This document shows, piece after piece, positions 4,395 to 63,582 of a stretch of DNA of 64,000 bases (within the stretch, counting starts at the first letter, position 1; each line of letters opens with the position of its first letter). The translations under genes and the position numbers were made by a program. The notes beneath the pieces are model-generated. The model saw nothing but the letters and a program-made list of their open reading frames with translations, searched no databases and was not told where the DNA came from. The DNA is taken from NCBI GenBank assembly GCA_013150955.1, contig JAADJD010000055.1:116343-180342 (forward strand). The letters run 5' to 3'. This DNA is from Calditrichota bacterium (GTDB taxonomy: Bacteria; Calditrichota; Calditrichia; RBG-13-44-9; J042).

Positions 4395-4564
4395 AACCCA
4401 GATTATGCATTAGAACCACGAATGGCACGAATTAACACAAATAAAAACAATAAAATCCATTGGATTAGATCTGGATGAAAATATGTTTCGGAGTTTATTC
4501 GCGATTTTGTAGATATGGTTTGGTTTCATTCGTGTGATTCGCGGATCAATGCATCATTCGGGTT
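4395..4564 (+). repeat. Dispersed intergenic inverted-repeat element, copy A
   Basis: This 170-bp copy defines the family consensus. The left end reads AACCCAGATTATGCAT, then ACGAATGGCACGAATTAAC. The right end is the imperfect complement (CATTCGTGTGATTCGCGG...ATGCATCATTCGGGTT). The interior contains ATCTGGATGAAAATATGTT and GAGTTTATTCGCGATTTTGT, shared with the other copies. It sits between the convergent radical SAM and popT genes, and a stray half-copy (TTACGAATTACACGAATT) precedes it at 4370-4388. The rest of the 4312-4658 gap shows nothing else. Confidence 0.85.
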
Positions 4565-11076: not shown

Positions 11077-11243
11077 ATCCCAGATTATGCATCACCACGA
11101 ATCACACGAATGGAAACAAATAAAATCAAAAAAATGCATTGGATTAATTCTGGATGAAAATGTGTTCTGGAGTTTATTCATGGTTTTGTGGACATTTTTG
11201 GGTTCCATTCGCGTGATTCGCGGTCTCGTGCATGATTTGAGTT
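11077..11243 (+). repeat. Dispersed intergenic element, copy B
   Basis: About 167 bp in the same orientation as copy A: left end CCCAGATTATGCATC followed by ACGAATCACACGAATGGAA, interior TTCTGGATGAAAATGTGTTC and GGAGTTTATTC, right end CATTCGCGTGATTCGCGGT with a terminal ATGATTTGAGTT. It lies between the M16 operon start and the pnp terminator. Confidence 0.8.
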
Positions 11244-25659: not shown

Positions 25660-25757
25660 TCCCAGATAATGCATTAAACCCAGATTATGCAGTAGCCTAC
25701 GAATGACACGAATGAACACCAATAAAAAGAATAAACCCAGATTATGCATTTGGGTTA
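25660..25757 (+). repeat. Partial dispersed element, copy C (repeated left ends)
   Basis: Only left-end material is present: CCCAGATAATGCATTA, then AACCCAGATTATGCAGTAG followed by TACGAATGACACGAATGAACACCAATAAAAA, then again AAACCCAGATTATGCAT. Several ends are stacked head to tail and the interior and right end are missing. It overlaps the last codons of the GWxTD gene (stop at 25755) at its edge. Confidence 0.7.
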
Positions 25758-34052: not shown

Positions 34053-34221
34053 AACCAAGATTATGCAATAGCCTACGAATGACATGAATGAACACCAATG
34101 AAAATAATAAAATGCACTTAATTCTATCTGGATGAAAATGTTTTCCCGGATATATTCGCTATTTTGGTGATATGATTCGAATTCATTCGTGTGATTCGTG
34201 GTTTAACGCTTTATTTGGGTT
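34053..34221 (+). repeat. Dispersed intergenic element, copy D
   Basis: A 169-bp copy: left end AACCAAGATTATGCAATAG then CTACGAATGACATGAATGAA; interior CTATCTGGATGAAAATGTT and GGATATATTCGCTATTTT; right end ATTCATTCGTGTGATTCGTGG, ending TTTATTTGGGTT. It lies between the starts of the Sua5-like gene and the end of the MurF-like gene. Confidence 0.85.
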
Positions 34222-35810: not shown

Positions 35811-35912
35811 AACCCGGATTTTGCACAAGCCGCCGAATTCCACGAATTATCACGAATAGAAATAATCCAAATTATTTATTAGACCGCGAATGAACACAAA
35901 TAAAAACAAATT
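35811..35912 (+). repeat. Partial dispersed element, copy E1
   Basis: Contains AACCCGGATTTTGCACAAG, then CCACGAATTATCACGAATAG, and a second set of ends ATTAGACCGCGAATGAACACAAATAAAAACAA. It is missing the interior and right part, and is followed at 35988 by a complete copy in the opposite orientation. Confidence 0.65.
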
Positions 35913-35987: not shown

Positions 35988-36156
35988 AACCCAAATGATG
36001 CTTTAAACCGTGAATCACGCGAATGAATCCGAAAAATATTAACAAAATCGTTAATATCTCCCGGAACACATTTTCATCCAGATACAATCCAATGTATTTT
36101 ATTTGTTTTATTTGTGTTAATTCGTGTAATTCGTAGGCTAATACATAATCTGGGTT
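35988..36156 (-). repeat. Dispersed intergenic element, copy E2 (reverse)
   Basis: A complete 169-bp copy in reverse: AACCCAAATGATGCTTTAAACCG, GAATCACGCGAATGAA; interior CCGGAACACATTTTCATCCAGAT; AATTCGTGTAATTCGTAGGC and the terminal ATACATAATCTGGGTT. It is followed at 36157-36204 by an extra right-end half (TGTCATTCGCGGTCGAATGCATC). Confidence 0.85.
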
Positions 36157-36204
36157 TATTATTTGTGTTCGTGTCATTCGCGGTCGAATGCATCATCCGG
36201 GTTA
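36157..36204 (-). repeat. Extra half element appended to copy E2
   Basis: A 48-bp solitary terminal half (TTCGTGTCATTCGCGGTC, then ATGCATCATCCGGGTT) abuts copy E2. The same arrangement (complete element plus half) occurs at copy F. Confidence 0.6.
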
Positions 36205-44037: not shown

Positions 44038-44470
44038 TTACCCTCCTAATTTTTTGTACAGATGATTTATTTGGGTGCAAAGAACCGGAATGGCCATATT
44101 CTTCCGGGAAACGGAAATGCACCGTCAACGGGCCTGCTGAACGGAAATCTCCGCCAGCCCGTCAACTGCACCATTCGACATGAATGGAAATACCCGGAAC
44201 TCTTCCTGAGGAATGGGACCAACGCCCGACACGATTCCTGAAAAAACCGACGGGACCAGTGGTCAACGTCTGCCGGTTAAAAAATGTAAGTGAACCTAAA
44301 AAAAGCGGGCAAAACTTCAATCGAATAACGCCAAATATTATAAAACCCGGCAAATTTTGTCAATAGGTTCGCCGCAAAAAAATAAATTTTTTCGAATGTA
44401 TTTGAAACACAGGGGACTTGTGAGGGATCAACCCGGCATCGAACACCCTGGATGATTCCAATGGAACCCC
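44038..44470. other. Intergenic upstream of the lamin-tail gene
   Basis: This gap probably holds the minus-strand promoter for the lamin-tail gene. An imperfect hairpin (ACGGGC near 44128 with GCCCGT near 44158, enclosing a CGGA/TCCG stem) is present but has no T-tract, so it is not called. Element copy F begins at its right edge. Confidence 0.35.
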
Positions 44471-44632
44471 AACCCAGCATCAAACCGCAAATCACGCGAA
44501 TGAAACCAAAAATGTTAACAAATTCGCGAATAATAGCCGGAACACATTTTCATCCAGACCTCGTCAAATGGATTTTATTGTTTTTATTCGTTTTAATTCG
44601 TGTAATTCGTAGGCTATTGCATAATTTAAGTT
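44471..44632 (-). repeat. Dispersed intergenic element, copy F (reverse)
   Basis: About 162 bp in reverse orientation: AACCCAGCATCAAACCGC, AATCACGCGAATGAAACC; interior TAGCCGGAACACATTTTCAT; then TAATTCGTGTAATTCGTAGGC and terminal TGCATAATTTAAGTT. It lies in the lamin-tail/lutA divergent gap and could carry part of either promoter region. Confidence 0.8.
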
Positions 44633-44680
44633 TATTCGTATGAATTCGTGTCATTCGTGGGGGAATGCAACCCCCGGTTT
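44633..44680 (-). repeat. Extra half element appended to copy F
   Basis: A solitary terminal half (ATTCGTGTCATTCGTGG followed by GAATGCAACCCCCGGTT) abuts copy F, as beside copy E2. The lutA start lies 68 bp further on. Confidence 0.55.
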
Positions 44681-45564: not shown

Positions 45565-45577
45565 GATGAAGACAAAT
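45565..45577. repeat. Direct repeat flanking element G, left copy
   Basis: GATGAAGACAAAT at 45565-45577 is exactly repeated at 45735-45747, immediately beyond the right end of element G. This looks like a 13-bp target-site duplication. The right copy includes the first two bases of the lutB start codon. Confidence 0.75.
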
Positions 45578-45734
45578 AATGGATTAAACCGCGAATTACG
45601 CGAATGAAACCAAAACACATCGACAAAATCACGAATATAACCCGAAATAAATTTTCACTCAAATCAGATCTAATGTATTTGATTATTTTTAGTTGTGTTA
45701 ATTCGTGCAATTCGTGGTTTAATGCATAATCTGG
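45578..45734 (-). repeat. Dispersed intergenic element, copy G, between lutA and lutB (reverse)
   Basis: 157 bp in reverse orientation: the left end is shortened (AATGGATTAAACCGCGAATTA...), the interior has CGAAATAAATTTTCACTC (a variant), and the right end has AATTCGTGCAATTCGTGG...ATGCATAATCTGGG. Both sides are bounded exactly by the 13-bp repeat GATGAAGACAAAT. It separates the two genes of what is normally one tight operon. Confidence 0.85.
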
Positions 45735-45745
45735 GATGAAGACAA

Positions 45746-63418: not shown

Positions 63419-63582
63419 AGCCCAAAATTTTCTTTAGCCTACGAATCACACGAATTAAAACGAATAATAACAATAAAATACATTAATTGTATCAGAATTA
63501 AAATATGTTCCAGGGTTTATTCGCGATTTTATTGATATTGGGTTCATTCGCGTGATTCGTGGTTTGACGCATTATTTGGCAT
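63419..63582 (+). repeat. Dispersed intergenic element, copy H
   Basis: 164 bp: left end AGCCCAAAATTTTCTTTAG (degenerate) then CTACGAATCACACGAATTAA; interior ATATGTTCCAGGGTTTATT and CGCGATTTTATTGATATT; right end TTCATTCGCGTGATTCGTGG and CATTATTTGGCAT. It lies directly downstream of the suf operon. Confidence 0.8.

Follow-up and report, generated by a model that had tools for sequence, protein, structure and literature searches.

A numerous family of intergenic MITEs with IS1380-type ends in a Calditrichota genome

The window, the whole 64,000-nucleotide stretch of Calditrichota DNA under analysis, contains seven full-length copies of a short repeat that a sequence-only reading had described as a dispersed family of about 165 bp. 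A profile built from oriented copies and searched with nhmmer recovered all seven. On the forward strand, the copy at 4397-4562 (166 bits) is flanked by AAAAA/TTTAT, its left target copy not being recognizable; the copy at 11079-11241 lies within an identical 5-bp duplication (TTCAT/TTCAT); and the copies at 34055-34219 and 63421-63580 are flanked by ATAAA/TTGAA and by ATAAG/ATAAA, respectively, the latter pair with one mismatch. On the reverse strand, copies lie at 35990-36154, at 44468-44630 and at 45571-45735, the last with an identical 5-bp duplication that reads ATGAA on the forward strand and thus corresponds to TTCAT. The partial copies named in the sequence-only reading were also recovered. 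Two are left arms on the forward strand, at 25678-25753 (48.5 bits, model positions 2-69) and 35812-35876 (31.7 bits, model positions 2-66). Two more are left-arm half-copies on the reverse strand, at 36157-36202 (22 bits), which adjoins the copy at 35990-36154 with its other half absent, and at 44627-44674 (24.7 bits), which adjoins the copy at 44468-44630. The element contains no coding sequence and the window no mobilizing gene, as had been stated; the candidate transposase is encoded on another contig.

To place these copies in the context of the genome, we derived a consensus and counted matches in 1.546 Mb of the 4.07-Mb, 66-contig assembly. The consensus spans 165 bp from CCC to GGG (CCCAGATTATGCATTAG...TTTGGG), which is also the modal length among 245 copies with good ends, making this a short, gene-free and uniform unit with a shared full-length consensus. 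The sample contained 533 profile matches, 250 of them full-length, and these occupy 4.1% of the sampled bases. The full matches lie in both orientations at near parity (136/114), in line with the original description. Extrapolation from this sample gives approximately 660 full copies genome-wide, and extrapolation from a contiguous 449-kb sample, in which 66 full copies lie, approximately 600. The genomic copy number of about 600-660 is therefore an estimate extrapolated from sampled sequence, and its lower end may be the more accurate because the larger sample contains a disproportionate number of contig starts. Pairwise identity among the copies averages 79.5% and exceeds 95% in just 0.1% of pairs, and several subfamilies with differing interiors are visible in the copy alignment.

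The terminal inverted repeats (CCCAGATTATGCATTAG / CCCAAATAATGCATTAA) required some redefinition. The repeated ends reported earlier are real, but their two outermost bases on either side are part of the target duplication and not of the element, so the element proper runs from CCC to GGG. Similarly, inverted repeats of about 40 bp had been proposed; the inverted likeness is present but the arms remain similar to about 60 bp, of which only the outer ~17 bp match an insertion-sequence terminal repeat. Near the element ends, the arms carry ACGAAT/CACGAAT repeats spaced at 10 bp.

The flanks of the copies indicate how the element came to be dispersed. When cut at CCC/GGG, the 5-bp flanks are identical in 91 of 245 copies, compared with 21.5 ± 4.2 when the pairing of flanks was shuffled (2000 shuffles, maximum 39). 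No other length tried (3, 4, 6, 7 or 8 bp) exceeded the shuffled expectation in the same 245 copies. The target follows the pattern WTNAW, every identical duplication having T as its second and A as its fourth base, the commonest being TTTAA, TTTAT and ATAAA. We also found 31 nested insertions, in which a full copy interrupts another whose second half picks up, in model coordinates, where the first leaves off; the halves of the split outer copies often overlap by 4-5 bp, the duplicated bases. These nested copies provide the strongest evidence for sites in their empty state. End pairs flanked by target duplications are concentrated at 325-350 bp, the length that two nested copies would have. 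Together with the IS1380-family terminal repeats described below, these features bear out the MITE-like, non-autonomous character that had been proposed. Equal-flank pairs at 760-1780 bp were considered as longer, gene-carrying elements with the MITE ends and rejected: those inspected appeared to be two separate copies around other DNA, with low-complexity flanks.

The genome also encodes two Y1_Tnp genes, and the repeats are palindromic, intergenic and numerous, as would be those of a REP/REPIN-type family mobilized by a Y1 (RAYT) enzyme. Y1 transposition proceeds through single strands and would not be expected to yield a target-site duplication. The clean 5-bp duplication, and a conserved 165-bp unit whose CCC...GGG ends match a DDE-type insertion sequence, leave this origin with a negligible probability.

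Placement relative to genes was assessed using ORFs called by codon usage. None of the 245 copies has its centre within a called gene, where coding sequence makes up 74% of the total, and just 0.4% of element bases fall within CDS; the strictly intergenic distribution noted in the window thus extends to the sampled genome. Convergent gene pairs host 58 of the 199 copies with called neighbors (29%) and constitute 89 of 873 gene pairs (10%), while divergent pairs host 20 of the 199 and likewise constitute 10%. Orientation relative to genes is balanced. This placement fits insertion wherever it is tolerated, and the confinement to intergenic DNA probably results mostly from purifying selection.

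A structured repeat RNA was the other possibility raised from the sequence. We considered it together with a protein-binding repeat, in either case maintained because an RNA hairpin is under selection; the intergenic placement with its enrichment between convergent genes would suit such a repeat. The halves of the element form an inverted repeat, and the fold of the top strand, at -53 kcal/mol, is what a long repeat of this kind would give. However, compensatory change was found in 0 of 14 arm pairs among 45 copies, with a covariation term of -0.81 kcal/mol, neither orientation is preferred relative to genes, and, apart from two tRNAs, the window has no Rfam match. Since transposition is demonstrated by the target duplications and nested insertions, the repeat is a transposed element and not a structured RNA, and selection on a hairpin as the reason for its presence is very improbable.

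The half-copies are partly explained by the same process. Some are the halves of an older copy split by a younger one, and the element accounts for many of the scattered half-repeats in the genome; others lack a second half and are accounted for only in part. Among the one-sided cases, the single arm lies upstream of the copy in 64 and downstream of it in 21. The rate of identical duplications is 20-24% for copies with a one-sided arm, 41% for isolated copies and 57% for those with arms on both sides. The one-sided half-copies are most simply explained by recombination or deletion between nested copies. A few half-copy units may be composite movements, for which the combination of arm plus full copy shows a weak excess (5 of 39 against 2.0 expected, and 4 of 13 against 1.4). 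In the window, the half-copy at 36157-36202 and its neighboring full copy have differing outer flanks when taken as a composite (ACTAA/TTCAA). Elsewhere in the genome (L101:369-1165, G000:C47), two genes that by eye resemble a small toxin-antitoxin pair lie between a full copy and a half-copy, and ATAAA is found at each outer edge of this arrangement. As an ATAAA pair also bounds the full copy by itself, composite movement is not established at this locus.

A search for the mobilizing enzyme revealed a single IS1380-family transposase in the genome (PF13701; NF033539, 219 bits against a cut-off of 180). It lies at the start of contig C18, where it is truncated by the contig end, and has a frame break near its N-terminus. 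The visible end of this IS1380 copy reads TTTAT-CCCAGATT-CCCAGATTACGCAATAG, with the terminal 8 bases occurring twice; the second end is unseen because the copy runs off the contig. The frame break and the 8-base terminal-repeat duplication (CCCAGATTCCCAGATTACG) can both be seen at L053:1030-1420 (G000:C18). A search for an autonomous element with the same ends had been suggested. In the genome's own IS1380 copy, a candidate for this role, the one visible end matches, the other would lie past the contig edge, and the reading frame is interrupted. The consensus left end of the MITE matches this end at 15 of 17 positions. Beyond the ~17-bp end the subterminal sequence of the genomic IS1380 is unlike the MITE arms, which means that the MITE did not arise from it by simple internal deletion.

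An independent comparison came from plasmids, on which the closest transposase relative found was from Aliarcobacter cibarius. Plasmid pACIB carries a complete IS1380-family insertion sequence of 1470 bp (L177:44311-45780) whose transposase is 43% identical, with ends CCCGCATTATGCAATAG and CCCAGATTATGCAATAG and a 5-bp ATAAT/ATAAT duplication, no MITE being involved there. A common left-end variant of the MITE matches the right end of this insertion sequence at 17 of 17 positions. Across the 245 left MITE ends, 13 match CCCAGATTATGCAATAG exactly and 157 with at most two mismatches, and of 241 near-matches to this end in the sampled genome only 7 lie outside element matches. The right MITE end, CCCAAATAATGCATTAA, matches the insertion-sequence end less well than the left one does, with 9 of 245 within three mismatches compared to 163 left ends. 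No transposase relatives were found in viral contigs. IS1380-family elements generate target duplications of 4-5 bp (PMC12116815), and the 5-bp, AT-rich WTNAW duplication of the MITE fits this range.

It is thus highly likely that the MITE family is mobilized by an IS1380-family transposase at a 5-bp WTNAW target and has spread between genes, and the mobilizer, lying outside the window, very probably belongs to this family. In the mechanism that the sequences suggest, the transposase would act on the MITE in trans, binding the ~17-bp terminal repeat as CCCAGATTATGCAWTAG at one end and CCCAAATAATGCATTAA at the other. It would probably also bind the neighboring 10-bp-spaced ACGAAT/CACGAAT repeats; the phased CACGAAT units are putative binding sites, presumably accessory ones. 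Cleavage would occur at CCC/GGG, followed by insertion into a 5-bp WTNAW target that becomes duplicated. The family may now be largely inactive, given its mean identity of 79.5%, the near absence of almost identical copies and the frameshifted state of the sole IS1380 copy.

That state of the lone IS1380 copy, frameshifted and incomplete, could also be taken to mean that another enzyme moves the MITE, for example an IS4/IS5-type DDE_Tnp_1 transposase, of which the genome has six further loci besides that on C18. The MITE matches near other transposases resemble ordinary neighbors at this copy density, and the 17-bp end and the WTNAW target match IS1380 insertion sequences both here and, independently, in Aliarcobacter. 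A different transposase is therefore improbable, and mobilization by the IS1380 family is the reading that we retain.

To examine the history of the family, we searched related genomes and sought empty sites. At 21 of 21 syntenic loci examined in the genome of a second species of the genus (G001) the element is absent, indicating that its spread is lineage-specific; the comparison is not base-exact because the intergenic DNA has diverged. In 612 kb sampled from G001 we found one related element, of 307 bp (L143:2440-2748, G001:C15), which shares the arms but not the interior and is flanked by an ATAAT/ATAAT duplication; this suggests that the arms can carry different cargo. G001 yielded no IS1380 match. 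Transposase matches were present in 3 of 40 genomes of the class, including the source genome, and elsewhere in the class only arm-like fragments of the element were found. One genome, G017, contains an IS1380-family element with a TTTAA/TTTAA duplication at one of its two copies; this group was rejected as a parent since its ends differ (CCTAAATTTC). Matches to the interior motif in many phyla were also set aside, being single short matches at loci without the element.

The phased block of the arms, CACGAATNNCACGAATNNACACGAA, occurs in unrelated dispersed repeats of three other genomes of the class, with 18 copies in G017, 12 in G027 and 4 in G016, whereas a reversed control pattern had no match in any genome. 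These repeats (for example G017:C1, L170:1500; G027, L172:1500; G016, L174:1500) lack the CCC/GGG ends, and G017 and G027 appear to have one such repeat family in common (GAGTTCAnTATAAAAAnCACGAATTnCACGAATnnACACGAAT). That the block is a recruited module, captured independently by several unrelated mobile repeats and possibly recognized by a host protein or transposase common to them, is a speculative idea that we consider unlikely.

We compared the family with known mobile repeats. Insertion sequences of the IS1380 (ISEcp1) family, as represented by the pACIB copy, have the same ~17-bp CCCAGATTATGCAATAG, the ATAAT duplication and the WTNAW target, but they are about 1.47 kb long and encode a transposase, whereas the MITE is 165 bp, gene-free and has only the ends in common with them. 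Tn3 ends begin GGGG and the ends of the present MITE begin CCC. The Tn3-derived TIMEs are likewise non-autonomous, with AT-rich insertion sites and duplications of 5 or 6 bp (PMC4133298). ERIC, Correia/NEMIS, RUP and Chunjie MITEs are also short, non-coding, intergenic and high-copy, with inverted repeats and duplicated targets, but are unrelated in sequence, the 5-bp WTNAW target being that of the present family. As many as 711 ERIC copies occur in Photorhabdus luminescens (PMC10969869), and RUP is linked to IS630-Spn1 and TA targets (PMC2229807), where the present family is linked to IS1380. MITEs of similar copy number are therefore known, and as a limited search of the literature found no report of one linked to IS1380, the element constitutes a new family within a known class of repeats, the MITEs.

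In mode of action the family would parallel the eukaryotic piggyBac MITEs, which also lack genes and depend on a transposase acting in trans. IS1380 is used as the prokaryotic outgroup for piggyBac transposases (PMC10813416), and a very numerous bacterial MITE population, of some 650 full copies, is here linked to that family. The piggyBac elements integrate at exactly TTAA, a 4-bp target (PMC7351741), while the present family duplicates the 5 bp of WTNAW. The lineage-specific spread of an IS1380-linked MITE makes this a tractable case of a gene-free element outgrowing its helper in a bacterium. The MITE is also a likely hazard for assembly, as the genome's lone IS1380 copy stops at a contig end. 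Beside that copy lies a tandem-like array of ~20-bp units around TCAAAACATANNNTTGTTTT (L053:1940-2230, G000:C18).
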